Positions 2,070 through 20,679 of a stretch of DNA of 20,679 bases are shown here, piece after piece; the stretch's first letter is position 1; each line of letters opens with the position of its first letter. Origin of the DNA: a virus; the IMG/VR virus record IMGVR_UViG_3300023198_000372, positions 1-20,679 of that record; one strand, 5' to 3'. The notes under the pieces were generated by a model. That model was not told the DNA's origin and did no database searches. It was given only the letters and a program-made list of their open reading frames with translations. Both the position numbers and the translations under genes were made by a program.

Positions 2070-3224
2070 ATGGCGGATTTTTCATTAACCACATTATTTG
2101 TGGTTCCAGTAGGTCAGACAACATGGCCTAGCTCTGGTTCAACTCAGGACTTAACTCCTGGAGAAGTAGGATTTTTTGGTCCTGATTACACAACACTTGA
2201 TCCAAACGATGGTGATCTTGACGGAGGAGCGTATTTCTATGTTGCACAAGGTAGACAAAACACTTATCTTCAAGGATCTAAAAGATCTGGTAAGATAGCT
2301 GTTAAAAACAGTAACGCTCCTAGTTACACAGACAATATCACAGAGCTTTACTCTATTAGAGGTTGTGCAACAGCACTTAACCAAGTGACAGAAGTAGATG
2401 GTTGGAATGTAACTTGTGGTGAGATTGTAACTTTAACATTACGTGCTCACTCTTCTTACATTGACACTCTTTATTTCAATGGATTCACTCGTTCAGTTAC
2501 TGTAAACGCACCTTGTTGCGATTGTGGAGCTGATCCATGTGAAACTGTTGATGTACCAGCATTGATTGATTCTATGATTGCTAAACTAGAGCAAAGTGCT
2601 CCTGGAAACAATCCAGACAACATTAGCTTTAACAGTTTCTACACATTCAGTAGAGTAGGTAATAATGAAAATGCAAAACTAGTAATTACAGGTAAACCAT
2701 TAACTAAATATGGACAACCTTGTGATGTAGCAGCATTTCCATTTGAGTATGACAAAATGCGTTTCAGTACTTTTGTATATTCAGGACCTGCAACCACTGC
2801 AGACTTTATTGTAGCTGACAATTGTAACATTGTAGCAAATGCTTTAGTAGTTCAAGAGTCTTCTTATCCACGAGGAACTTCTGACGAAATTAAGCAACTA
2901 GAAAAGAATTTCTATAGCTATCAAGCAGGTTACTTAAAGCACTTGTTCCGTATGAACGGATTCAACCAAAACTTTGAATCTTATGTTACAGATGGTGTTA
3001 TCTATGATACCTACTACATCAAGTTCAACGAGTATGACAGGTCAGCTTACCAGTGGGGAGACTATGTAATGCAAGATCAAACAGTAATTATTGCTGTTCC
3101 AACAGGAACTACTCTTTCTAACGATATACTAGAAGGATTAATTCAAGATGAGGACGGTGTAGAATATGGTGGTAGTTGTCCAACAACATCAACTACATCA
3201 TCAACTACTTCTCAACTTCCTTAA
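2070..3224 (+). CDS. Virion structural protein, possibly auxiliary capsid, with Thr/Ser tail
   Basis: This 384-residue protein is beta-rich in composition. A Cys cluster CCDCGADPC spans residues 149-157 and may bind metal or cap a domain boundary, separating an N-terminal half (1-148) from a C-terminal half. The extreme C-terminus after a Cys-Pro is a Thr/Ser run (PTTSTTSSTTSQLP), related to the Thr tracts of genes farther on. Being third after the probable capsid gene and closed by a strong terminator suggests an abundant virion protein, for example an auxiliary capsid or head-fibre-type protein. I cannot match it to a specific reference gene. The ATG at 2070 follows AAATTAAA without Shine-Dalgarno sequence. 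Confidence 0.7.
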   Translation: MADFSLTTLFVVPVGQTTWPSSGSTQDLTPGEVGFFGPDYTTLDPNDGDLDGGAYFYVAQGRQNTYLQGSKRSGKIAVKNSNAPSYTDNITELYSIRGCATALNQVTEVDGWNVTCGEIVTLTLRAHSSYIDTLYFNGFTRSVTVNAPCCDCGADPCETVDVPALIDSMIAKLEQSAPGNNPDNISFNSFYTFSRVGNNENAKLVITGKPLTKYGQPCDVAAFPFEYDKMRFSTFVYSGPATTADFIVADNCNIVANALVVQESSYPRGTSDEIKQLEKNFYSYQAGYLKHLFRMNGFNQNFESYVTDGVIYDTYYIKFNEYDRSAYQWGDYVMQDQTVIIAVPTGTTLSNDILEGLIQDEDGVEYGGSCPTTSTTSSTTSQLP

Positions 3225-3258
3225 TGGCAGTAAGTAAGTAAAATAATTAATATAACCT

Positions 3259-3306
3259 ATACCAGAGGTGAGAGGATAAAAACTCATATCCTCTGGTATT
3301 TTTTTT
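3259..3306 (+). terminator. Strong intrinsic terminator closing the capsid-side genes
   Basis: ATACCAGAGG (3259-3268) pairs perfectly with CCTCTGGTAT (3290-3299). TGAG (3269-3272) can also pair with CTCA (3283-3286). Eight Ts follow at 3299-3306. It is placed 34 bases after the stop of the 384-residue gene and only 10 bases before the next ATG. Confidence 0.9.
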
Positions 3307-3316
3307 AAACAGCATT

Positions 3317-3874
3317 ATGGCAGTAACGATATTGGACTTTATTGTACCACCAACATATAACGTAAACCTTCTTGCAGTTACAGATGCGTCTATTTACGTA
3401 GGTGGTGTTCCTACATTAGGAACGCTTTATATAACTCCTCCTGGATTTGATGAAGTTGATGTTGCATTTACACCAGAAGAGACAAACATCTATGGATCTA
3501 ATAATTTAGAAATAACTGAGCCAGACTGTAGAGAACCTTTACCAGACGGTATATATCGTATTAAATACCGAATCAGCTCACCAGTAATTGCTGAGGTGAC
3601 TAAAAGTGTATTGCGTGTAGATAAACTACAGGAGAAGTTCGACAATGCATTCTTACATCTAGATTTAATGGAGTGTGATGGTGCTCTCACTACACAAAAT
3701 AGTGTTAACCTCAACACAATAAACTTTTTCATACAAGGAGCTATTGCTGCAGCAAATAATTGTGCAGAAAAAGAAGCTCTAAAATTATACGACCAAGCAA
3801 ATAAAATGCTTGATAGATTTATGAAATGTGGATGTGGTTGTTCAGGAAACAACTATGTTATAAACTTTAAGTAA
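3317..3874 (+). CDS. Conserved Bacteroidota-phage protein, unknown function
   Basis: This 185-residue protein has two parts. Residues 1 to about 95 are beta-rich, with the motif LPDGIYRIKYRIS typical of a small beta-sandwich. Residues from about 100 on are helical (KLQEKFDNAFLHLDLMEC, then FFIQGAIAAANNC and EKEALKLYDQANKMLDRF) and end in a Cys-rich CGCGCSG. I recognise this two-part layout from many Bacteroidota phages and prophages, where it sits near small Cys proteins and holins, but no function is established to my knowledge. A structural or assembly role is inferred. The start codon lies 10 bases after a terminator, so expression probably needs read-through or processing. The next gene begins one base after the stop. 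Confidence 0.7.
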   Translation: MAVTILDFIVPPTYNVNLLAVTDASIYVGGVPTLGTLYITPPGFDEVDVAFTPEETNIYGSNNLEITEPDCREPLPDGIYRIKYRISSPVIAEVTKSVLRVDKLQEKFDNAFLHLDLMECDGALTTQNSVNLNTINFFIQGAIAAANNCAEKEALKLYDQANKMLDRFMKCGCGCSGNNYVINFK

Positions 3875-3875
3875 C

Positions 3876-3980
3876 ATGGCCCAGTGTGCAAATTGTGGTG
3901 CAAAGGTGGGATGTGGATGTCAGCTAAAAGCTGGTCTATGTGCCTATTGTCACGGTAAATTAAACAAAAACAAGAAGTAA
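3876..3980 (+). CDS. 34-residue zinc-knuckle-like Cys protein
   Basis: The reading frame ATG 3876 to TAA 3978-3980 gives 34 residues beginning MAQCANCGAKVGCGCQL. Cysteines lie at 4, 7, 13, 15, 22 and 25, followed by His26, in a CxxC...CxC...CxxCH pattern consistent with binding one or two zinc ions. The tail is Lys/Asn-rich. It starts one base after the previous stop, and the next ATG starts one base after its own stop. This tight spacing and the strong Cys pattern argue that it is real. Similar tiny Cys proteins accompany the preceding gene family in other Bacteroidota phages, as I recall. Function unknown; nucleic-acid or protein binding is possible. Confidence 0.75.
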   Translation: MAQCANCGAKVGCGCQLKAGLCAYCHGKLNKNKK

Positions 3981-3981
3981 A

Positions 3982-4392
3982 ATGCTAGGACCTAAAACAA
4001 CATGTTGTAAAGAGGGTGGGGATATTCAAGATTTACTCAAAAGAATAGACTGTAAGTTAGCAGAGCTAGGTAATGACCTATACAACAATGTTGTATTTAT
4101 GTTGAATAGACCGGTGTATGCTAACAAGATTATACAAATTCTCACATACAAGCGCATCCTAACATCTAAATACTACAACATAGAGTATGCAAGTAAGTAT
4201 ACAGTTGAAGATATTGCTAGTAAGGTGATTAGATTAACTGCAGGATGTGTAAGGAGATGTCCTGAGATACCACCTGTCTGTGAAACTACTACTACAACAA
4301 GTACTACAGAGAATCCTTACAATTGTACATTTGAAGTGGACATTGTTTGTATACCAACAACAACTACCACTACTAGTACGATACCAGTATAA
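3982..4392 (+). CDS. Small helical protein with Thr-rich C-terminal extension
   Basis: This is a 136-residue protein. Residues about 14-90 are helical with the block QILTYKRILTSKYYN and a Cys pair at each end (CC near the N-terminus, AGCVRRC near residue 90), a pattern I recognise from other Bacteroidota phage virion regions. It is followed by two Thr tracts: one after CE (bases 4285-4308) and one before the C-terminus (bases 4357-4380), separated by a short Cys segment. The protein ends TTSTIPV, nearly the same ending as the 46-residue protein encoded at 5502. Function unknown; it may be a virion or tail-fibre-associated component. Confidence 0.65.
   Translation: MLGPKTTCCKEGGDIQDLLKRIDCKLAELGNDLYNNVVFMLNRPVYANKIIQILTYKRILTSKYYNIEYASKYTVEDIASKVIRLTAGCVRRCPEIPPVCETTTTTSTTENPYNCTFEVDIVCIPTTTTTTSTIPV
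4357..4380 (+). repeat. Thr-codon tract at the C-terminus of the 136-residue protein
   Basis: Mixed ACA/ACT/ACC/ACG codons, with one AGT, encode TTTTTTST just before IPV and the stop. A sister tract lies at 4285-4308. No more than three identical Thr codons stand in a row in either tract. Confidence 0.8.
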
Positions 4393-4426
4393 AATAAAAA
4401 ATAATCTCTACTAAAACATATATATA

Positions 4427-5500
4427 ATGTCAAACACTTGCACAAATTGTTACAACGGATGTGCTGAAATTACTTCAGACAAGTGCGTAAAATATACAGG
4501 AGTAGATATTCCTGAATTAGGAATACAGAGTGGTGACACTCTACTTCATGTAGAGCAAAAGATCATGGAGTTTTTAACTAGTACATTAAATGGAACAGGG
4601 ATCTTTCCAGAAATTCCATCTAATGTTATTTGTGATCTAGTTCAGGCAAATCTACCACTAACTGGTCCACTAACATTAAATGACTATTTAACTGGAGTTA
4701 TAGAAACTTTATGTGATTTAGAAAATAGAATACTTGGACTTGAAAATCAAAACCCAAACAGATTATATGATGTAGACTGTTTAACTCCTACATCAAACAC
4801 AGATACTCACGAAGTTCTTCAAAGTGTAATATACAAAGTGTGTACACTTGCTCAGCAGTTAACTGACTTTGTAACATATGTAGATGCTACGTACGTAAAG
4901 ATATCAGATATTAATACGTACATCCAAAACTATCTAGATACACAACCAACTGAAAACCTTATAAGCAACCGTATGGTTCCTAATGCTGTTGTTGCATATA
5001 CAGGATCTTTAACAAACTTTGATATTACTGGAGCTGGTTTAGGAAATTGGGACAGAATATTCTTGTGTAATGGTCAAAATGGAACTCCAGACTTAAGAGG
5101 TAGAGTGCTTGTTGGAGCAAATTCAGGAATGGGTGGAGGACCACTTGATGCTGCAGTGAATCCAGCAATACTTGGAAATCCTACATATGCACTCGGATCT
5201 ACACATGGAACAAATAGTGTTGTTCTTACTCAAGGTCAGATTCCTTCTCATACGCACACATCAACTGTTTCAACAGAGCCAGACCACACGCATGATTTTT
5301 CAAATAATCTAATTGGACGTGGTACAGGAGGAGGTGATGCTCTCACTAATCAAGACAACATTTCAAGTAATGACTACACTGAGACTGATCCAGCTGGAGA
5401 ACACACTCACACTGTAACAATTGGTAACACTGGTGGTGGATTAGGACACCAGAACTACCAACCAGGTCGAGGTATTTATTACATAGTTTATAAACCTTAA
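4427..5500 (+). CDS. Tail-collar / short tail fibre protein (T4 gp12-like C-terminus)
   Basis: This is a 357-residue protein. The N-terminus is Cys-rich (CTNCYNGC). Two segments resemble each other: CVKYTGVDIPELGIQSGDTL with a following helix (about 20-55) and CLTPTSNTDTHEVLQSVIYK (about 123-145). They look like repeated fibre-base modules. The C-terminal half is a classic phage collar domain: DLRGRVLVGA at 222-231, then three HTH pairs (residues 275-277, 287-289, 326-328), and a Gly-rich end with YQPGRGIYYIVYKP. In T4 gp12 such His residues bind metal in a knitted trimer that contacts the host surface. A role as a receptor-binding fibre or collar on the virion is likely. It has no poly-Thr tract of its own. 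Confidence 0.85.
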   Translation: MSNTCTNCYNGCAEITSDKCVKYTGVDIPELGIQSGDTLLHVEQKIMEFLTSTLNGTGIFPEIPSNVICDLVQANLPLTGPLTLNDYLTGVIETLCDLENRILGLENQNPNRLYDVDCLTPTSNTDTHEVLQSVIYKVCTLAQQLTDFVTYVDATYVKISDINTYIQNYLDTQPTENLISNRMVPNAVVAYTGSLTNFDITGAGLGNWDRIFLCNGQNGTPDLRGRVLVGANSGMGGGPLDAAVNPAILGNPTYALGSTHGTNSVVLTQGQIPSHTHTSTVSTEPDHTHDFSNNLIGRGTGGGDALTNQDNISSNDYTETDPAGEHTHTVTIGNTGGGLGHQNYQPGRGIYYIVYKP

Positions 5501-5501
5501 T

Positions 5502-5642
5502 ATGGAAAACGCATTTTTACCCGTAAACCCTGATTGTGACAATGTAGTGCTAAACTGGCCCTGTGGCTGTAGAACTACATATGTTAGAGGTGTTTCTAGT
5601 GGGAATATTTGCACAGATATAACAACAACAATCCCAGTATAA
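5502..5642 (+). CDS. 46-residue Cys-rich protein with TTTIPV tail
   Basis: The frame from ATG 5502 (one base after the preceding stop) to TAA 5640-5642 gives 46 residues. Cysteines are at 12, 21, 23 and 37 (WPCGCRTTYVRG in the centre). The C-terminus TDITTTIPV echoes TSTIPV of the 136-residue protein; the last nine bases including the stop, CCAGTATAA, are the same in both genes. One base separates it from the next ATG. I do not recognise a family. The Cys spacing and shared tail support a real small protein rather than a spacer. Confidence 0.6.
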   Translation: MENAFLPVNPDCDNVVLNWPCGCRTTYVRGVSSGNICTDITTTIPV

Positions 5643-5643
5643 C

Positions 5644-5877
5644 ATGGCATTTTTAGATATATTTAAAGACGAAAATGATGTTAACGAGAAAAACGTTATA
5701 GGATTTATATCATTTACAGTAATGGTTACGTTTGCTATTGTAGACCTAGTCACTGGATATTTTGGTAAAGATCTCATCATCCAAGAGTTTATATATAACT
5801 CATTTGTAATAGTAACATTAGGATCTTTTGGCATTGCAAGCTTAGAAAAAGGACTAGGAAGAAAAGAAACAAAATAA
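5644..5877 (+). CDS. Holin-like small membrane protein
   Basis: This 77-residue protein has two hydrophobic segments: about 17-40 (VIGFISFTVMVTFAIVDLVTGYF) and about 50-67 (IYNSFVIVTLGSFGIASLE). A charged N-terminus (KDENDVNEKN) and a Lys/Arg-rich C-terminus (GLGRKETK) flank them. Size, two membrane spans and charged tail fit small phage holins, and similar proteins in Bacteroidota phages are commonly labelled holins. It would sit in the host inner membrane and time lysis. No endolysin lies nearby in this window, so the role is inferred. A virion-associated or superinfection-related membrane protein is an alternative. Confidence 0.6.
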   Translation: MAFLDIFKDENDVNEKNVIGFISFTVMVTFAIVDLVTGYFGKDLIIQEFIYNSFVIVTLGSFGIASLEKGLGRKETK

Positions 5878-5896
5878 TAAATAGCTACTTAAAAAG

Positions 5897-6085
5897 ATGT
5901 ATTATAAAATAGAAATAACACTCGTATCTCTTATGTTATTATTGGGAAATGAAATACTAGGAACATTAGTAGCATTAACTACATTAATATACTATGGATC
6001 CATGCTAAAGATTAATGTTATAGATACACGTTATGATGGTAGCTGGATTAAATACTTTAAGTCGTTCCTCACTCGTAAATCATGA
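5897..6085 (+). CDS. Small membrane protein, unknown function
   Basis: This is a 62-residue protein. Residues about 5-38 (ITLVSLMLLLGNEILGTLVALTTLIYY) form one long or two short hydrophobic segments, followed by a basic tail (WIKYFKSFLTRKS). Next to the holin-like gene, it may be a second lysis membrane protein such as an antiholin or pinholin. Its TGA stop overlaps the next start in ATGA (6082-6085), implying translational coupling to the first of the tandem beta-domain genes. It is the only gene in the window that ends in TGA. Confidence 0.55.
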   Translation: MYYKIEITLVSLMLLLGNEILGTLVALTTLIYYGSMLKINVIDTRYDGSWIKYFKSFLTRKS

Positions 6086-6336
6086 CAGTAGAAATAACAC
6101 TAACTACAGCTGGAGCTGATGCTACATTGTTTGATTTGTATTCAGATATTGATGGATTCACCACACCATTTGAAACAGATGTACCTGTAGCGTCTCTATT
6201 AGCAGGATATAGCTCAGCATTGGTTCCTGACTTTACAACTATTGTAAGGGTACAGGCTAAAGGAGACTGTGTTAACTATATAGATATTGAGTGTACAGAA
6301 CCAACAACCACCACTACAACAACCATAATATTATAA
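6082..6336 (+). CDS. Small beta-domain protein A with C-terminal poly-Thr tail
   Basis: This 84-residue protein has residues 1 to about 72 as one beta-rich domain. Its pattern, shared with the next two genes, is EIT.TT.G....F.LYSD.DGFT..F...V....L.AGY......P..TT.VRV...G.C..Y.DI. A Thr7 tract (bases 6304-6324) and IIL follow, then the stop. The predicted fold is an Ig-like beta-sandwich, inferred from alternation and length. There is no signal peptide. The family is one I associate with Bacteroidota phages, often beside Thr tracts; function is unknown and virion decoration is a reasonable guess. It starts by ATGA overlap with the preceding gene. Confidence 0.7.
   Translation: MTVEITLTTAGADATLFDLYSDIDGFTTPFETDVPVASLLAGYSSALVPDFTTIVRVQAKGDCVNYIDIECTEPTTTTTTTIIL
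6304..6324 (+). repeat. Thr-codon tract at the end of protein A
   Basis: Seven mixed ACA/ACC/ACT codons are followed by IIL and TAA. The segment ACCACTACAACAAC recurs in the Thr tracts near 6816 and 16986. The tract ends 16 bases before the next ATG. Confidence 0.85.
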
Positions 6337-6340
6337 TAGC

Positions 6341-6595
6341 ATGACGGGAGTAATAGAGGTAACAACAATTGGAACAGACGCTGATAACTTTTATTTATTC
6401 TCAGATGTCAATGGTTTTACATCAGCATTTGCTGTAGGTGTAAGTGCTGCTGAATTAGCGGCTGGCTATGCAACAGATCAAATACCTAACGGAACAACAA
6501 TTGTTAGGGTGTTATCAGATGGCCCATGTAACAGTTATATCGACATAGCAATTACTACCAAAACAACCACAACCACAACAACAATAGTAGTGTAA
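6341..6595 (+). CDS. Small beta-domain protein B with C-terminal poly-Thr tail
   Basis: This 84-residue protein is the same length as its upstream neighbour and aligns to it end to end (VTT.GTDA, SDVNGFT, AGYAT, TTIVRV, YIDI). After the domain comes TTKTTTTTTT followed by IVV. The ATG at 6341 is four bases past the upstream stop (TAA then an in-frame TAG), and the downstream ATG is one base past this stop. The divergence from protein A with conserved length argues for an old duplication kept by selection. It is probably a virion-surface or fibre accessory domain; function unproven. Confidence 0.7.
   Translation: MTGVIEVTTIGTDADNFYLFSDVNGFTSAFAVGVSAAELAAGYATDQIPNGTTIVRVLSDGPCNSYIDIAITTKTTTTTTTIVV
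6554..6583 (+). repeat. Thr-codon tract at the end of protein B
   Basis: ACT ACC AAA is followed by seven alternating ACA/ACC Thr codons, which encode TTKTTTTTTT. The tract ends 13 bases before the start codon of the next gene. Confidence 0.85.
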
Positions 6596-6596
6596 T

Positions 6597-7529
6597 ATGA
6601 TAAGCATAGAAATAACAATAACAGAAACCACAGCTGGACCATTTAATCTGTATTCAAATGCAGACTCATTCTTAGTTCCTTTTGAGACAAGTGTTCCTGC
6701 TTCAAGTCTTATTTCTGGATACACTACATCTGCTCCAGATGGGACAACTTATGTAAGAGTGTTGTCTACAGGAGATTGTAAAAACTATGTAGATGCAGTT
6801 CTTCCATGTAGCATCACCACTACAACAACAACTACTGCTGTTGAAACTGTTGCTATTAACTGGGAACTAATTACAGGAGAACCTGATAACATCGGATTTG
6901 TAAATCTTAAAATATTTATAAATGGAATTGAGCAAGTTAATGCAACTATTTCTGATGGAAACCTTGTTGAGTCTGGTGTAATAAATGTAGTGCCAGGAGC
7001 ACTCATGACTGCAACAATGGTTAATAGCAATCTTGGTATATGGAACTTTGGAAACAAGATATTAAAAGACTTAGTTCTATATCAACCACAAGATAACTGT
7101 TTTAGTTGCCCAAACAGCTTAGAGACATCAATGGATTCAGCATTATTTATAATTGCTAACACTGACTTTATATTCCAAGGAGATGTCAATGATCCAACAG
7201 CCCCACCAACAACCACAACAACATCAACCTTACCTCCTACAACCACAACAACTACTACTGCTGGAGCTATTGCTTGGCCAATCACTGCGGAGTATCTTGA
7301 TAATCCAGCGGTAGCTTGTTCAGATACTACATACATATCAGTAGTTTATGTTGAGAATGACATATGGCAACTAGGAGATGTAGTGTATACAGATGCTGCT
7401 AAAACTATACCTTATGTACCCACCCCTGGTGGAGACCGATTCTTTCACGTAGATACTGGTGGAGTTGGTATTGCTATAAGTGTAAGAGAGGATGGCACTG
7501 GTATTATCAAGGGTGCAGTAAGTTGCTAA
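6597..7529 (+). CDS. Multi-domain Thr-linked protein with beta-domain copy C
   Basis: This 310-residue protein is built of modules joined by Thr tracts. Residues 1-73 are the third copy of the tandem domain (PFNLYSNADSFLVPFET, GDCKNYVDA). A Thr7 linker (bases 6816-6836) follows. Residues about 84-200 are a second beta-rich domain (VAINWELITGEP, IFINGIEQVNA, CFSCPNS). Two more Thr linkers at bases 7209-7259 are split by STLPP. The last module (about 222-310) carries GDVVYTDAAKTIP and ends in a Cys; it resembles a module in the muzzle protein. The layout fits a fibre or decoration protein displaying several small adhesin-like domains. It is the last gene before two terminator hairpins. No catalytic motif is visible. 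Confidence 0.7.
   Translation: MISIEITITETTAGPFNLYSNADSFLVPFETSVPASSLISGYTTSAPDGTTYVRVLSTGDCKNYVDAVLPCSITTTTTTTAVETVAINWELITGEPDNIGFVNLKIFINGIEQVNATISDGNLVESGVINVVPGALMTATMVNSNLGIWNFGNKILKDLVLYQPQDNCFSCPNSLETSMDSALFIIANTDFIFQGDVNDPTAPPTTTTTSTLPPTTTTTTTAGAIAWPITAEYLDNPAVACSDTTYISVVYVENDIWQLGDVVYTDAAKTIPYVPTPGGDRFFHVDTGGVGIAISVREDGTGIIKGAVSC
6816..6836 (+). repeat. Thr-codon tract, first linker of the 310-residue protein
   Basis: Seven ACC/ACT/ACA codons join beta-domain copy C to the second domain. It shares the 14-base segment ACCACTACAACAAC with the tracts near 6310 and 16986. Confidence 0.85.
7209..7259 (+). repeat. Double Thr-codon tract in the 310-residue protein
   Basis: Two runs of Thr codons (7209-7223 and 7239-7259) flank STLPP. 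They separate the central domain from the C-terminal module carrying GDVVYTD. Confidence 0.85.
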
Positions 7530-7535
7530 AGAATA

Positions 7536-7567
7536 AAAATCTTGTTTTGTTGGTTTTACAAGATTTT
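7536..7567 (+). other. AT-rich hairpin after the accessory cassette
   Basis: AAAATCTTGT (7536-7545) pairs perfectly with ACAAGATTTT (7558-7567) around a 12-base loop. The A run before and T run within the stem give it the form of a weak two-way terminator. It directly abuts the stronger hairpin downstream. Confidence 0.55.
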
Positions 7568-7601
7568 CTCCTAGGGTTATAATATAGCCCTGGGAGTTTT
7601 T
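7568..7601 (+). terminator. Intrinsic terminator ending the accessory cassette
   Basis: Bases 7568-7580 (CTCCTAGGGTTAT) pair with 7584-7596 (ATAGCCCTGGGAG), about 13 pairs including two G-T wobbles, with a 3-base loop. TTTTT follows at 7597-7601. It separates the accessory cassette from the metallophosphoesterase operon. Confidence 0.9.
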
Positions 7602-7649
7602 ATTTATAATGAAATTAATTATAAAGAATAACCTCCCTTAGTGAATTTA

Positions 7650-14100: not shown

Positions 14101-17100
14101 GTCTAACAAACACATCAGGTGACCCTTACATCACTGATGATTCTAGGTTTACTATAAGTGATGTTGGTTCTTGCGGATCTCCTGAAGAAGAGAAAGATTT
14201 GTCAGTGGTTTCCTACTATGCGTCAATGAAAAACATTGTTCTTAATCAGTGGGGTCAAATCTATTCATATAAAACAATCGATACAGGATACCAAGCAATA
14301 CGTGGTGAATCCGGTACATCTATTGTATTTGGAGGAGATATATTCATTTCTAAGTTTGCATACAAAACAAAACTTCCATTCTTTATAGACAACAGAGTGG
14401 GAGCTCCCGATGATAGTGATATATTCTATGATGAGATTGGTAATGTTGGATTCCCAAAATACTGGCACTCATCACGTTCTATACTTCAAGACTACTTTGG
14501 TGCACCAAATGATGTAATTATGAAAAACCTCATTTCATATAAGGCACACAACTTTGACTGTCCTAGTGATCCATCATCTATACCACCAGAAACTGGAGGC
14601 TCAGCTAGAACATTCTATGATGGGTATTTCTATTTGTTTGCATACGGTGTTCCTAGTTTCTATTGTGAGAGTACATATAATGTTGATCTACGTCAAGCAT
14701 TTAATAATAAAGAAGGAGACTTCTGGCCTCATGTAAGCTCTAGTATTCCTGATGATTGGGTACAAGAAAGTAATGTTCCTATTGCTCAAGACAATACATA
14801 TTATTACAATGTAACATTCTCTAAGCAAAACAAAGAGAACGTATTCTCACATCTTCCTCCTGATTGGGAAGAAGACTTGTGCTTTACATACTATCCATTT
14901 AGAGCTATATATTCTGATGCAGCAACAACAAATGCTGACAATAGAATAAACAACTGGCTAATCTACAGAGCACTATCTTATCACGACTTCCCTCAAAACT
15001 ATGGAAACCTAGTGTCATTAGATGGTATTCAGAACAAAGCAATTCTTGCTAGATTTGAGAATAAGTCATTATTGTATAACAACCTATTAACTATTGATAC
15101 AAGCAATCCTCAAGCTGCTTATGTTGGTAATCCTAGACTGTTTGATGCAGCACCTCCAATTGACTTTGCTGAAACAGATTTAGGATATGTAGGAACTCAA
15201 CATAAGTTCTTATTAAAGATTCCTCAAGGTCAGGTTACAGTTGATGCTAAAAGAGGACAAGTGTTCTTGATTGCAGGTACAAAAGCTGTTGATTTAACAG
15301 GATTTGCTTCAGGAGTTAATAAGTTTATGAGAAATCACCTACCGTTTGAAATATTGAGATACTTCAATACAGTAGATATTGACAACCACTTCAATAGTGT
15401 GGGACTTCATGGTGTGTATGATAGTAAGTTTGAAAGACTTGTTCTTACAAAACTTGACTACATCCCACTTAGTGAGGATGTAAAATACAACGAAGAAGAA
15501 CAATACTTCTACATTATAGATACAGGAGATATTGAAAGAAGAGTGTACCTACAAGATCAAAACTATTTCTGTAACAAGTCGTGGACTATGTCTTTTGACT
15601 TTAACACAAACAGTTGGATATCGTTCCATACTTATTTACCAAACTTTTACATAGGGGAAAATACATTCTTCTATTCTGGTGTAAACAGTTGTTGTGAAGA
15701 TGGTCTTGATTTTGAAGTGTTAGTAGGAGAGCTACAACCTGTAGTTCCTGAAACTACATCATCAACAACAACCATCCCATCAAAAACAACTGACACTACC
15801 ACCACTACATTAGATTGTGAGTTATCAGGAGGCACATTTGACGAAACAAGTTGTGAGCTGGAAGGAACTGCTATCATCACTGTACCTACACCAACTACCA
15901 CTACAATATGTCAAAGAAGTGTGGTTAACACATTTGGATTGTTTGAAGGATATCAGATTGTTGGAGATCCTGCTGTAATCACTACAGGAAGTGCAGAAGA
16001 TGCTTGTGCTGCAAGTAACTTTGTACCACTTGTTATAAACCCAGAAGACCCAACAGCTAGTGTTCTTGCAATCACATTCCAAGCGCAAGGAACTACATTA
16101 ACGCCAGGGGAATTATTATATTATGGAACAGGTACAGATTGTACATTTGTTCCAGATGGATGGTACTACACTACAAGCACAGCAGCAGATAATCAAGTGT
16201 TCCAAGTGGTTAGTGGCGTTATTCAACAATTGTATGATTGTGAGTGTGTTGTAACAACAACAAGCACCACTACAGTGGCTCCATATATAAATGAATGTTG
16301 CTCTATGATAATAGATGTAAAGAATGACACAATAAAGTCATTAAACATTGGTGAGAGTGAAGTTACGCTACCAATTCCTGGATACACTACAGGTGTAGGA
16401 ATTGCCATCACATCTAGCAAACTATGGTCACTAGACACTGCTATCGATGAATGGGATATTACATTAAATCCATTTACAGCAACATTTAATAGATCAATAG
16501 CTCTTCCTGGAGGATTTACTACATCATCTGGAATTGCTGCCTTAAACAACACTACACTTATTGCTGTAGATGATTCAGCATCTCCAGAAGAAATAGTTGA
16601 GTTGGACATCACCACCCTTACAGCTAGTAGCACAACACAATTTACACTACAAGCAAACAGGGTGGCAACAAGTAATCCGCTATACACAACTGATGGAAAG
16701 CTTATTATTATTAATCGAGACAGTGTATTATTCGATTTCTACATGTCTCAATATGACTATGCAACAGGTACACTAGAAGAAGATGTAAACATAGGAAGTG
16801 TATATGGTGTTGTATTGTTTGAATGTGACTGTGTAATCTGGGTAGTCACTGCAGCTTCAGATATATACTACGTATCTCCTGATGCAACACATACACTAAT
16901 CCCATCAGTTAACTTGGGAGAAAACATTACAAGTGGATCTCAGATAGTATCTTGTATTGGTAAGAGTTTAACTAGCCCTACTACCACCACTACAACAACT
17001 TCTGGATTAACCACTACGACAACAACAACCTTGTGTGGAACTTGTAACGAGTATCAAGTGAGTGGACCAACAGCAATCTATTATAATGACTGCTACGGAA

Positions 17101-17198
17101 TTCAACAAACACTTGTTGTTCCTTCTGGACAAACAGAAAATGTTTGCTCATGTTCAGCAATTCCAGGAGCAACGTTAATTGGACCATGTACACCATAA
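11139..17198 (+). CDS. Giant tail muzzle (stabilization) protein with Thr-linked domain array
   Basis: This is a 2019-residue protein. Residues 1 to about 1530 form the core: GLNLDSSINQVGPGRVTYALNA near the start is the hallmark of crAss-like stabilization proteins, called the muzzle in PhicrAss001, which close the distal tail. The core ends near NKSWTMSFDFNTNSWISFH and ENTFFYSG. An appended array then follows: Thr linkers at residues 1539-1557 and 1586-1589, a YYG/Cys module (about 1592-1702), a Thr linker (1706-1712), a beta-propeller-like region (about 1713-1945), two Thr7 runs (1948-1964) and a terminal Cys module (CNEYQVSG...) to 2019. Core residues are probably structural; the array probably varies and may bind receptors or glycans. 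The core C-terminal module known from related muzzles seems to lie in the next gene. Confidence 0.85.
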   Translation: MAKQKDNKNTSAKASDIRLEVGYARTGLNLDSSINQVGPGRVTYALNAAVENFDGSAVTYQNELGNELCLVFPTGYKLIGSHFIPEKRKDIFFLVNPNTGGSEIGYMDNNDCQYHTLINADCLNFSTDHPIPKVVHRITNCTTEIYWTDGFNSRRYLDIENIPYKLIAGTPSCDPVYGDEVDCNQLKLQPNFSIPEITILDVTSSGNLTAGTYQFAVQYADAGGNELTSYYSVTNPLPIADEFITSVNFNYNVGKSIVFNVTNLDLTGQFQYFNVAVIKTINNASSVELVGTYNIEQATEQVTYSGADETAIRLSISDIFEKFPYYDIAQDVTAVQDVIVWDNLTSIDRINYQSIASQIILGWESYRIPPDENYADELNAANLRGYMRDEVYAFEIVFLLRNGKQTDGFHIPGRAINNNESYPDVPDTNSDFIGEPDYHVGDVGYKSYWKVYNTASVTSNSPEYISADNYKGPYQYGEFAYWESTEEYPCNKDVWSELAGQPIRHHKFPDVLVSPIMDSTDIPYSGGSIVPQLKDSAVFPIGVRIDNNQVNAVIGTSNLTEEQKDDIVGFKIVRGDRGTNRSIVAKGMLRNVNKYTRDEEEYYYPNYPYNDLGDDPFILDSNNAWNDESEPWLITLPAEDNTEPGTYEYKSAINGKISTAPIQPGETVEICSLQRPTSILGNKMLIGPGNYNVWKFSTKACAGYRARWDDPFTDDNSSTQAKSSWVEGYSCLCFFYGILDYARVNPGVIPTATELASTPCVCCSDVIKVLQEPVQMPIGQITSTKKSRRSKLGCNVSIPLKPLSEQANTDITYRQIFNSPETSFGQPFLGSVLKMESVMFGAGKGHFVEVKDNAKYKLLSKEAQIDALNSARDIANITDFNAGVMFTVYQSYLTIYINGITRKNYAMSFNSRASYDYSLPIDNNTSGGIKQREIDFSRYLIPGVQSLSGDERPVNNWNRESSVFIKTKEERENGTTIDPFLFPSSTPSLTNTSGDPYITDDSRFTISDVGSCGSPEEEKDLSVVSYYASMKNIVLNQWGQIYSYKTIDTGYQAIRGESGTSIVFGGDIFISKFAYKTKLPFFIDNRVGAPDDSDIFYDEIGNVGFPKYWHSSRSILQDYFGAPNDVIMKNLISYKAHNFDCPSDPSSIPPETGGSARTFYDGYFYLFAYGVPSFYCESTYNVDLRQAFNNKEGDFWPHVSSSIPDDWVQESNVPIAQDNTYYYNVTFSKQNKENVFSHLPPDWEEDLCFTYYPFRAIYSDAATTNADNRINNWLIYRALSYHDFPQNYGNLVSLDGIQNKAILARFENKSLLYNNLLTIDTSNPQAAYVGNPRLFDAAPPIDFAETDLGYVGTQHKFLLKIPQGQVTVDAKRGQVFLIAGTKAVDLTGFASGVNKFMRNHLPFEILRYFNTVDIDNHFNSVGLHGVYDSKFERLVLTKLDYIPLSEDVKYNEEEQYFYIIDTGDIERRVYLQDQNYFCNKSWTMSFDFNTNSWISFHTYLPNFYIGENTFFYSGVNSCCEDGLDFEVLVGELQPVVPETTSSTTTIPSKTTDTTTTTLDCELSGGTFDETSCELEGTAIITVPTPTTTTICQRSVVNTFGLFEGYQIVGDPAVITTGSAEDACAASNFVPLVINPEDPTASVLAITFQAQGTTLTPGELLYYGTGTDCTFVPDGWYYTTSTAADNQVFQVVSGVIQQLYDCECVVTTTSTTTVAPYINECCSMIIDVKNDTIKSLNIGESEVTLPIPGYTTGVGIAITSSKLWSLDTAIDEWDITLNPFTATFNRSIALPGGFTTSSGIAALNNTTLIAVDDSASPEEIVELDITTLTASSTTQFTLQANRVATSNPLYTTDGKLIIINRDSVLFDFYMSQYDYATGTLEEDVNIGSVYGVVLFECDCVIWVVTAASDIYYVSPDATHTLIPSVNLGENITSGSQIVSCIGKSLTSPTTTTTTTSGLTTTTTTTLCGTCNEYQVSGPTAIYYNDCYGIQQTLVVPSGQTENVCSCSAIPGATLIGPCTP
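15753..15809 (+). repeat. Thr-codon tract joining muzzle core to the appended array
   Basis: This Thr-rich stretch, with Ser, Lys and Asp interruptions (TTSSTTTIPSKTTDTTTTT), starts the appended array of the muzzle at residue 1539. A short further tract lies at 15894-15905. Confidence 0.8.
16254..16274 (+). repeat. Thr-codon tract before the propeller-like domain
   Basis: ACA ACA ACA AGC ACC ACT ACA encodes TTTSTTT after a Cys-containing module end. It separates the YYG/Cys module from the propeller-like region of the muzzle. Confidence 0.8.
16980..17030 (+). repeat. Double Thr7 tract before the muzzle terminal module
   Basis: Two runs of seven Thr codons (16980-17000 and 17010-17030) flank SGL. 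Codons are mixed, and at most three identical ones stand in a row. The segment ACCACTACAACAAC is shared with tracts in the accessory cassette about 10 kb upstream. Confidence 0.9.
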
Positions 17199-17208
17199 CA
17201 TAGTAAGA

Positions 17209-18081
17209 ATGGCAAATAAAAAGACTATATCAATAAAACTAACATCATCTGGCTCAGGTGCTGGGCCTTTTGATATACTAGATTCGTCAGGCAATGTTAT
17301 AAAGTCTGATGTATCAAAAGAGAGTTTAATTCTAGGAACTACGTTCGTATTAGATGAAAATGAGCTAATTATAAAGATTATTTCAAAAGGAAATTGTAAC
17401 TTTGAGAAAACTGTTGCTCTATCAAGTATTCCAAATAAGGATTGGGTGAATGCTAAATATGTTGAAGGTACAACAGGATGTTTGTGGTCACACTTAACAA
17501 ACAAGCAAGTGTACAACTACTTCTATGGAAACATACAGCCATATATATTAGAGTATCCTTTCTCGTACAAATATCAAGATGAGATATTACAGAATGTAAA
17601 AGACTACACTAAGGCATATAAATATCTTCCAAATGGTGCAGGAGCTTTTGATTCTAACACTAGAGTGGAAGTGGATAATGAATGGTTCAACAAAGCTGTT
17701 TTATATAACGGACAACAGTCTACGGGTGTGTTAGAACTTGTTGCTAAGCCTCAAAACAATATGGCAGCATACATGCAATACCCCATATTAAATACTGACA
17801 GTAAAGTGATTACATTCACCAAAAGTGATAACTTTTATCAGTATAACACATTCTGGGCTCTACAGAAAAATGATGAAGCACCACTCTTTAACAGCTCATG
17901 TGAATCATTATCTATAGATAAGGTGGTGAATCAAAATAATATGGACTATGGTTCAAGAGGATTTAAAAAATCACCTCTTAGAGCAAAAGATTTAAAGGTG
18001 AGACACATACTAGACAATAAGTCAACTGTACACTTAGTAAGTCAGTTTGTTGTAACACCAGCACAAATATCATATAAGTAA
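17209..18081 (+). CDS. Beta-domain copy D fused to a detached muzzle-type C-terminal module
   Basis: The chosen start is ATG 17209 (MANKKTISIKL), ten bases after the muzzle stop, giving 290 residues. An upstream in-frame ATG at 17179 would overlap the muzzle gene and adds HHN-rich residues unlike the domain. Residues about 6-72 resemble the tandem beta-domains upstream (GAGPFDIL, V..ESL..GT, GNCNF). The rest carries YKYQDEILQNVKDYTKAYKY, WFNKAVLYNGQQSTG, KSDNFYQYNTFW and LKVRHILDNKSTVHLVSQF. From memory these belong to the last part of crAss-like muzzle proteins, so I infer a split muzzle gene. It would assemble with the muzzle at the tail tip. If related muzzles lack this part, it is simply a conserved tail protein. 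Confidence 0.65.
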   Translation: MANKKTISIKLTSSGSGAGPFDILDSSGNVIKSDVSKESLILGTTFVLDENELIIKIISKGNCNFEKTVALSSIPNKDWVNAKYVEGTTGCLWSHLTNKQVYNYFYGNIQPYILEYPFSYKYQDEILQNVKDYTKAYKYLPNGAGAFDSNTRVEVDNEWFNKAVLYNGQQSTGVLELVAKPQNNMAAYMQYPILNTDSKVITFTKSDNFYQYNTFWALQKNDEAPLFNSSCESLSIDKVVNQNNMDYGSRGFKKSPLRAKDLKVRHILDNKSTVHLVSQFVVTPAQISYK

Positions 18082-18089
18082 TAATAACA

Positions 18090-20679
18090 ATGGCACTAAC
18101 CGCAGCTAAAGCAAAGAAAATACTAGAGGATGGTTTCATCCAAGGTAAAGCTCTTACAGAGAAACAGAAGAAGTTCTTTGGGGCTATTGCTGGTGGTGCT
18201 ACGCCATTGAAAAAACTTAACGGTGGTTGGTTAGACAAGTTTCAAGATGGTGGAGATGTTAGCTTTGATAGTGTTCAAAGAGCTGTTAGAAATGTAGAAA
18301 GTTTAGATGGTAAGTTAATGTGGAATCCTGAGTCCACTGCTACTGGTTTATATGGACAACGTTTTAGTGAAATAAAAAGTGAATACCCAGGAACAAGAAA
18401 AGAGTTTGCACAAGATACAATTGCCCAAAAAGACTTCTTTAAAAATAGATTCTTTGAAGGATTACCTGCTACACAAACTACACCACTGTCAAAGGATGCA
18501 AATGATCTATACAATGAGTATTCATCACAGATTCCTGGATTTGACTATTCAAAAGAAGACATAGCTGTTCTATCAAACTTTTTAGGAAGACAGGGAACAA
18601 GAAAGTATTTAGGCAACCATATAAGAGACAAAAAGTCTCTAGAAGAAGCTCTTCCTAATATATACGGACCAGATGCAAAACAAAGAAACAAAACTCCAGA
18701 TCAATATTTAAACCAAGCTAGAGAATATTATAAAGAGGGTGGTTGGTTAGATAAATATCAAAATGGTGGAGAACTTAATCAAAAATATATTGATTCTACC
18801 TTTAATGCTAATGTGGATAAACGTTGGGTACAAAGACTTTATGAAAAAAACCCAGAGTTTTATTTAGAAGGACAAACAAAACCTTCAACACATTATATGG
18901 AATCTGGTGATGGTTACGTTTATCCTAGAGTGATGGAAGGTGTTGATGGAGAATTAAAAGAAGTATCTAGAGAAGAAGGAAGATCACAAGGTATTAAGTT
19001 TCCTAATGATGAAATAGCTCAATGGTTTGCTAAGAACTACAAGAAGGGAACAAATGTATTGAAAGAATATCAAATGGGAGGAAGTCTTCCAGGAGCTACA
19101 GGAATGATGTATGCACGTACGTCTGGGTTAGAACCTAAGAAAGCTCAGGACGGAACAGTAGAATATGGTACACCTGAGTATGAAGCTGCATATAGAGAAG
19201 GTAGATTTGCTGATGTACCTAATCAACTAGATGAAGTAGTTATAAATAGTGGTGTAGATTATAATAAAGATATTTATTATGACACTCTAACAGATCAAGA
19301 AAAAGATCTTTATCACAACGATTTTAGCCCAATAGGAAATGCTGTAAGAAGAAAAGCTTACACTAAAAGAGGTCTTGCAGAAGATGCTTTAGCTATACCA
19401 GGGCAACTTTTACAAGGAGCAGGAGAAGCAATGCAAATGCCACAATCAGCAATGGTTGAAGGTATAGAAGCTATACGTGGTAATGAATATGATTTTGCTA
19501 ATAGTTTACCTGGAAGCGGTAAACAGAGAGCACCATCTGAAACGATGGGATTTGAAACTACAGATGATATGTCTTGGTATAATCCAAAAGTGATGTCAAA
19601 TTTTGCAATGGATATGTTTGCAGACCCATCAAACATTGTTGGAGCAGGTGTAGCTGATGATGTATTAAAGCTAGGTTTAAAACAAGGATTAAAAAAGGCA
19701 GCAGTAAGTAATGTAGACAATATAAAGAATATAGGTAAAAATGTGAAAGAAATACAACAAATACCTAATTCCATTAGGTCTTTTGTAGCTTCTAAAGTTT
19801 TAGATAATGCTAAAGTTAATCCAAAACAATTAAAAAATTTATATAACAATAGAATATTAGATGAACAATTAATTGCACCTAATGTACAAAGTAAAGGGAT
19901 TACTGATCTTCCTGATGCTGTTGTAACACCAGACCAAAACTTTTTAAATATAGGTGGTAGAATGTATTATAATAGTCAATCAAATCTTGGTGCTAGATTA
20001 ATTGATAACACAAAAAATTTTATACCTAAAGTAACAGACTCTAGATCAACTATTAAGTATAAAAATAAAATGAATAAGTTATATGATATAAACGAAAATG
20101 CTCCTAGTTTATATGATGGACAATACTTTAAACATAACTTTACTTCACAACCCATTGATGATTTTATTATCCATAACGATAGGGGAAATATAAATGATCA
20201 AATGAAAACAAGCCTCAACCAAAGGACATGGTGGCAGAAATCTACACCATATAGAGGCATGGCGCCAGCATCACCTTTATCTAGAGATGTATTTGGTAGA
20301 CATCTTTATGCACGACAATCTGCATTAGAAGCTAGTATAGGAAGACCTTTAAATACTAATAGGGAGCTTATTGGTGACGTAGTTAGGGAAGGAAAATTAG
20401 ACAGGAATAATATAACAATTACACCTACTAAAGAATCAGACCTATATAACATTGAAGGTCTTGAACAATTAACTATGAATCCAGTTACTGGTGTACTTGA
20501 AAGAGGTATTTTTACAAATTCACCAACAAGAAAAATTACAAACACTATTGAAGGTATTGATCCTTTAAAAACAAAAGAACAATTTAGAACAGACATATTA
20601 CAGCTTGATTCTATAAAAAATCTGAAAGACCAAGCAAAAAAAGGAAATTTAAAGTCCCACTTAAAAATGCTAGCAGAAA
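18090..20679 (+). CDS. Large internal virion (cargo-type) protein, 3' end outside window
   Basis: From ATG 18090 the frame stays open for 863 codons to the window edge. The first 360 residues hold a recurring short motif: GGWLDKFQDGG at 45-55, GGWLDKYQNGG at 217-227, KEYQMGG at 325-331 and KKAQDG at 350-355. A hydrophobic and Ala/Gly-rich stretch follows (IPGQLLQGAGEAMQMPQSA about 436-454, and MFADPSNIVGAGVADDVL about 510-527), then a long Lys/Asn-rich region. The position directly after the muzzle genes and the large size match the cargo proteins packed in the tail and capsid of PhicrAss001 that are thought to be ejected into the host. No enzyme motif is visible in the part present. Confidence 0.7.
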   Translation, partial: MALTAAKAKKILEDGFIQGKALTEKQKKFFGAIAGGATPLKKLNGGWLDKFQDGGDVSFDSVQRAVRNVESLDGKLMWNPESTATGLYGQRFSEIKSEYPGTRKEFAQDTIAQKDFFKNRFFEGLPATQTTPLSKDANDLYNEYSSQIPGFDYSKEDIAVLSNFLGRQGTRKYLGNHIRDKKSLEEALPNIYGPDAKQRNKTPDQYLNQAREYYKEGGWLDKYQNGGELNQKYIDSTFNANVDKRWVQRLYEKNPEFYLEGQTKPSTHYMESGDGYVYPRVMEGVDGELKEVSREEGRSQGIKFPNDEIAQWFAKNYKKGTNVLKEYQMGGSLPGATGMMYARTSGLEPKKAQDGTVEYGTPEYEAAYREGRFADVPNQLDEVVINSGVDYNKDIYYDTLTDQEKDLYHNDFSPIGNAVRRKAYTKRGLAEDALAIPGQLLQGAGEAMQMPQSAMVEGIEAIRGNEYDFANSLPGSGKQRAPSETMGFETTDDMSWYNPKVMSNFAMDMFADPSNIVGAGVADDVLKLGLKQGLKKAAVSNVDNIKNIGKNVKEIQQIPNSIRSFVASKVLDNAKVNPKQLKNLYNNRILDEQLIAPNVQSKGITDLPDAVVTPDQNFLNIGGRMYYNSQSNLGARLIDNTKNFIPKVTDSRSTIKYKNKMNKLYDINENAPSLYDGQYFKHNFTSQPIDDFIIHNDRGNINDQMKTSLNQRTWWQKSTPYRGMAPASPLSRDVFGRHLYARQSALEASIGRPLNTNRELIGDVVREGKLDRNNITITPTKESDLYNIEGLEQLTMNPVTGVLERGIFTNSPTRKITNTIEGIDPLKTKEQFRTDILQLDSIKNLKDQAKKGNLKSHLKMLAE
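18222..18254 (+). repeat. Motif copy 1 (GGWLDKFQDGG) in the cargo-type protein
   Basis: Encodes residues 45-55. It is nearly identical to the second copy at 18738-18770: Phe51 is replaced by Tyr and Asp53 by Asn. Confidence 0.75.
18738..18770 (+). repeat. Motif copy 2 (GGWLDKYQNGG) in the cargo-type protein
   Basis: Encodes residues 217-227, 172 codons after copy 1. Shorter relatives follow at 19062-19082 (KEYQMGG) and 19137-19154 (KKAQDG). Confidence 0.75.

Follow-up and report, generated by a model that had tools for sequence, protein, structure and literature searches.

The muzzle of crAss-like phages is described as a single-chain protein that is conserved throughout the order and forms a hexameric gate at the tail tip, with IG1, IG2 and crass-fold domains. 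In crAss001, gp44 (PDB 7QOK/7QOL; PF25731) is one chain of 1371 aa. The virion protein of Flavobacterium phage Fpv1 (1783 aa; phrog_15100) and the 1654-aa muzzle of Leptolyngbya phage Lbo-JY46 are each encoded by a single gene. Podoviruses possess beta-propeller tail nozzles of the T7 gp12 type (Pan3, Pam1, Pa223, SU10), which are mostly smaller and single-chain. To our knowledge, a split of the kind described here is not known in podovirus nozzles.

Division of the muzzle between two genes

The stretch of DNA analyzed here (the window), a viral fragment of 20.7 kb, appears to carry a crAss-like tail-gene block; the parts of the divided muzzle and the three small genes at 6082–7529 lie on its plus strand. 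The gene of P1 (11139–17198) encodes a protein of 2019 aa and ends with a TAA stop codon at 17196–17198. P1 matched the Pfam profile PF25731 (Crassvirus muzzle protein) with an E-value of 3.9e-33 and 115 bits (cut-off 27). In PHROGs, it matched phrog_37948 (E 8e-110) and the start of phrog_15100 (positions 12–416; E 1.1e-29). The genes preceding P1 matched PHROG virion structural families, one of them weakly. After a gap of 10 bp (17199–17208), which differs in length and frame among relatives, the gene of P2 (17209–18081; 290 aa) begins with an ATG at 17209 in a frame other than that of P1. Positions 1588–1781 of the 1783 positions of phrog_15100 corresponded to P2 residues 90–288 (E 4.5e-14). 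Thus, opposite ends of one single-gene family were matched by P1 and P2, in order. A Pfam search with P2 alone gave no match, the muzzle C-terminus being recognized only in PHROGs. The gene at 18090, downstream of P2, matched nothing in PHROGs or Pfam, and PDB sequence searches using P1, a part of P1, and P2 returned zero matches.

The original prediction had the muzzle core of P1 run to about residue 1530 and then turn into Thr-linked domains and a stop. This description proved correct, with the core ending at residue 1519. Alignment to single-gene muzzles placed the last conserved core strand, FFYSGVNSCC, at residues 1510–1519 (15666–15695), and its end is named cut point Y. The strand closes with Cys1518 (15690–15692) and Cys1519 (15693–15695), and is followed by a Thr-linked accessory tail of about 500 aa (residues 1520–2019; 15696–17195) at a place where single-gene muzzles have no tail. 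The next gene had been predicted to carry the end of the muzzle, which held for P2 residues 90–288. It did not hold for residues 1–84 (17209–17460), which were delimited by profile search, show a confident compact predicted fold and represent a separate accessory domain (N-domain). Right behind Cys91 (17479–17481; CLWSHL) begins the C-module (residues 92–290; 17482–18078), which is under strong purifying selection and which homology identifies as the closing segment of the muzzle in the ancestor.

P1 and P2 were compared with the single-gene muzzles of Lbo-JY46, Fpv1, csAssE-Sib, Cellulophaga phage phi17:2 and crAss001. In all five, the end of the P1 core is followed directly by the P2 module in the same chain, so that, as the proposed alignment to gp44 and other muzzles had been meant to reveal, single-gene muzzles do contain the module encoded from 17209. 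P2 aligned to the muzzle C-termini of Lbo-JY46 (E 6e-22), Fpv1 (6e-18) and csAssE-Sib (2e-13), and by only part of its length to that of phi17:2 (E 2e-5); the similarity sets in at residue 90–92 of P2. The Lbo-JY46 protein gave the top-scoring named-phage alignment for P1 and P2 alike, and differs from them in being one gene. The Fpv1 protein also holds both halves in order, but in one gene and, unlike P1/P2, without the accessory array and without junction cysteines. Gp44 is the counterpart of the P1 core and the P2 C-module together. A C-module profile aligned to about residues 1236–1304 of gp44 (E 2e-5), and the join lies within EFYAFKDGKMWEQ, which starts at residue 1229, at the DG turn (about 1235/1236). 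Judged by profile boundaries, core and module are joined by 0–7 residues in uncut loci, with locus L145 as the sole exception. Where gp44 makes a short turn, the window has a tail of 500 aa, then a gene boundary and then a domain of 84 aa. Core and C-terminal segment, which the PF25731 muzzle holds in one polypeptide, were found on separate polypeptides in the window and in 116 further distinct loci; P1/P2 is therefore a two-chain muzzle variant and not a canonical single-chain member.

Breadth, age and recurrence of the cuts

Scans of IMG/VR together with named phages yielded 235 loci with 153 distinct C-modules; a query derived from Lbo-JY46 retrieved no viral contig, and an alignment of seven members offered no usable stretch. 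The 153 distinct loci comprised 94 with cut Y (window included), 23 with cuts X and Y, 21 single-gene muzzles, 10 with cut X only and 5 that were incomplete or unclassed. Cut Y was thus present in 117 of 153. Where both ends are present, P2 almost always follows P1 immediately. Among cut-Y loci, the distance from the P1 stop to the P2 start ranged from -14 to +29 bp and all three frames occurred; therefore, neither a base error nor recoding explains the split.

In a phylogeny built from conserved muzzle segments, cut Y has a single origin, one change accounting for it, and its clade has an SH-aLRT support of 100%; every other branch has either single-gene muzzles or cut X alone. A single gene is indicated as the ancestral state and the split as derived, because gp44 and the Pa223, Pan3 and Pam1 nozzles are single-chain with the module C-terminal and because muzzles outside the clade are uncut at this site. 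The module is thus not an old independent gene that relatives always encode separately, which would have spoken against the original prediction. Its central claim, that accessory domains at the join turned one ancestral gene into two, is supported by the single-gene outgroups and the phrog_15100 matches. The split is old and common to the whole clade, neither recent nor particular to this phage. No cultured member was found for the phages with a split muzzle. Among 84,980 bacterial and archaeal genomes, a pattern search with P2 found no relative and hence no pointer to a host. The literature searched, which included few subscription journals, contained no report of a divided muzzle.

The second cut, X, is located about 65 residues upstream of cut Y, and loci with both cuts have three-gene muzzles. 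Cut X recurs: depending on the sampling, it requires 5–9 changes, in the clade of the window and in a distant one, on a tree with poorly resolved parts, and some of these changes may be losses. Three-gene muzzles were seen in L024, L030, L039, L040, L048, L050, L053 and others, the middle gene (279–586 aa) comprising the last core strands and an accessory tail. The distant lineage with cut X only (L133, L136, L137, L138, L142, L145, L151) has upstream pieces with tails of 70–620 aa, and its downstream piece is often rich in cysteine at the very start (MNCTC... or MACNC...). Gaps of 2–2.5 kb separate the cut-X pieces in L139 (about 2839–5388) and L140 (about 5707–7638). A muzzle break at a third position was found in one locus only (L029, 7167–7366; 803 + 875 aa), which may represent either a further split or an error.

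Accessory domains, folding and cysteines at the cut

In each of the 116 other cut loci, accessory sequence flanks the cut on both sides. The P1 tail measures 22–640 aa in the Y clade. Pfam recognized PKD, Ig or Fib_succ_major domains in a few X- or Y-cut tails (Fib_succ_major in 3 of 53 scanned) and named no domain in the P1 tail of the window. Tail turnover estimated by BLAST was inflated by the Thr-rich linkers, and no inference was drawn from it. Upstream pieces of L024, L042, L057, L064, L097 and L142 contain LYNWHAVND-like stretches and/or SVRLIKN-like ends; these segments, resembling Fib_succ_major, would occupy the new free C-terminus. Within the P1 tail of the window, repeated strand-rich motifs at 16299–16829 (about residues 1721–1897) have by eye the look of a small beta-propeller and gave no Pfam match. 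Poly-Thr linkers occur inside or at the end of several genes at 2070–7529, a hint that Thr-linked display modules form a set spread over the genome.

Profile searches showed homology between the P2 N-domain and the N-terminal part of small stand-alone genes that lie upstream in the same genome, namely those at 6082–6336 (E 4e-6), 6341–6595 (E 3e-3) and 6597–7529 (E 2e-7). In L144 and L227, P1 and P2 are separated by a complete member of this gene family, and in L111 by another small ORF. L145, of the X lineage, carries a 77-aa insert at the Y turn and is uncut there. An order in which insertion came before a gene boundary from the accessory family fits L145, L144, L227 and the kinship of the N-domain. 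The split had been ascribed to insertion of the domain array or a new start; the array indeed lies exactly at the cut, and, as a refinement, the downstream gene has its own start codon together with an accessory-family N-terminal domain.

The C-module is under strong purifying selection: in informative close pairs, dN was 0.006–0.047 versus a dS of 0.14–0.67 (dN/dS about 0.04–0.2). The N-domain evolved faster than the C-module in most pairs. When P2 was modeled alone with AlphaFold2, the N-domain was confident and the C-module mostly was not, its blocks having a pLDDT of 28–71; this low confidence may partly come from a shallow alignment. A fold search with this lone model, poor in its C-module part, gave nothing significant. 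In an AlphaFold2 model covering the C-terminal part of a single-gene (fused) homologue, the C-module adjoined the core and had a pLDDT of 63–88 over most of its length. The best Foldseek matches of this model were both crAss001 muzzle entries (E 7e-13), and superposition on gp44 1026–1370 gave a Z of 11.3 with a high rmsd of 9 Å. The model also matched the podovirus nozzles of SU10, Pa223, Pan3 and Pam1, the match reaching the C-terminal end in the last three. Its junction had a pLDDT under 50 (318–345); the reading of the join as a hairpin therefore rests on sequence.

Cysteines at the positions of P1 Cys1518 and P2 Cys91 were both present in 109 of 118 scored cut-Y loci and both missing in nine (G or S in P1, S in P2), with zero mismatched loci; in joint presence or absence, all 118 agreed. 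Since the nine loci form one clade, they represent one coupled change, counted once. In L148, the neighboring P1 cysteine is lost and the Cys1518/Cys91 pair is kept, which picks out the first P1 cysteine as the partner of Cys91. The Y-site turn of single-chain homologues is without the cysteine pair. Phage assembly occurs in the reducing cytoplasm, which counts against a disulfide. The simplest reading of the paired cysteines would be a disulfide across the cut ends, a specific testable proposal. In the crAss001 tail, inter-protein disulfides serve as a stabilizer (PMC10172136).

Proposed assembly of the divided muzzle and alternatives

P1 and P2 are probably two chains of one muzzle subunit, with the C-module supplied in trans and a proposed disulfide in most members. 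Accessory domains would have entered the ancestral muzzle beta-propeller at a tight turn close to its end (about 1235/1236 in gp44). The small Thr-linked genes of the phage itself would also have supplied a gene boundary, i.e., a stop followed by a start and an N-terminal domain, which cut the gene. Next to the cut P1 strand, the C-module would complete the end of the fold, and the two chains likely close one propeller. The two halves would reassemble in this way, as the original prediction presumed. In most members, a Cys1518–Cys91 disulfide, formed outside the reducing cytoplasm, would replace the lost peptide link. The presumed gain is two free ends at the tail-tip surface for swapping surface-binding domains, with channel and gate left intact.

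A sequencing or assembly error at 17196–17209 in an intact gene, for which the original prediction had asked that reads be checked, can be dismissed with near certainty, as the same cut with its flanking accessory sequence is repeated in the other 116 loci. That one protein is still made, through programmed frameshifting, stop read-through, RNA splicing or a split intein, is suggested by the use of introns, inteins and recoded stops in crAss-like phages (PMC7886860). It is nonetheless highly improbable. A frameshift or read-through pair was rejected since the frame relation and the gap at the junction are not fixed among relatives, and the ATG of P2 stands just behind, or overlapping, the P1 stop. 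For an intron, Rfam gave no match, and for an intein, Pfam detected no match in P1, P2 or the tails and no halves at the P1/P2 ends. P2 might instead be independent, its C-module serving in a new role such as a separate tail or adhesion component while the fold of P1 is not completed. Its own start and its fast-evolving N-domain, akin to small display genes, would suit such a protein, but P1 would be left without a closing segment, P2 has kept its place right behind P1 in almost every locus where both ends are present, the C-module is strongly constrained with a poor lone predicted fold, and the cysteines at both cut ends change together. We regard this role as unlikely.

A further alternative concerns the bond itself. 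The cysteines could have another role, e.g., in a metal site or in an intra-chain or neighboring-subunit bond, with the cut ends held by the fold alone, and there is an appreciable chance that they do. P1 has two adjacent cysteines, the nine loci without the pair are still split, so the bond is not essential, and the correlated loss is a single event. On the other hand, both positions flank the missing turn exactly and are never mismatched, and it is the second P1 cysteine that L148 lost while the pair remained. The two-chain subunit with its C-module in trans remains the preferred reading.

Beyond the original prediction, the analysis showed how old and widespread the split is, that a second cut recurs, that the P2 N-domain has kin among small accessory genes and that the cysteines at the cut ends are paired. 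In a large environmental clade, the muzzle is made as two or three chains, against the single-chain description, and annotation pipelines will therefore miss or misname its end. The locus is a naturally occurring example in which a tight turn of a closed fold has been cut and, apparently, replaced by a disulfide; an insert without a cut is a plausible intermediate. The muzzle, once one chain, is cut at a tight turn that took in putative surface domains, and the cysteine pairing suggests that the ends are bonded again. There is an even chance that the virion beta-propeller gate consists of two or three polypeptides in which a disulfide between chains takes the place of the cut turn, that it evolved as a platform whose freed ends receive modular surface-binding domains, and that the second cut arose repeatedly in separate crAss-like lineages. 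The cut sites look like places for swapping surface domains at the tail tip and are a candidate host-range determinant.
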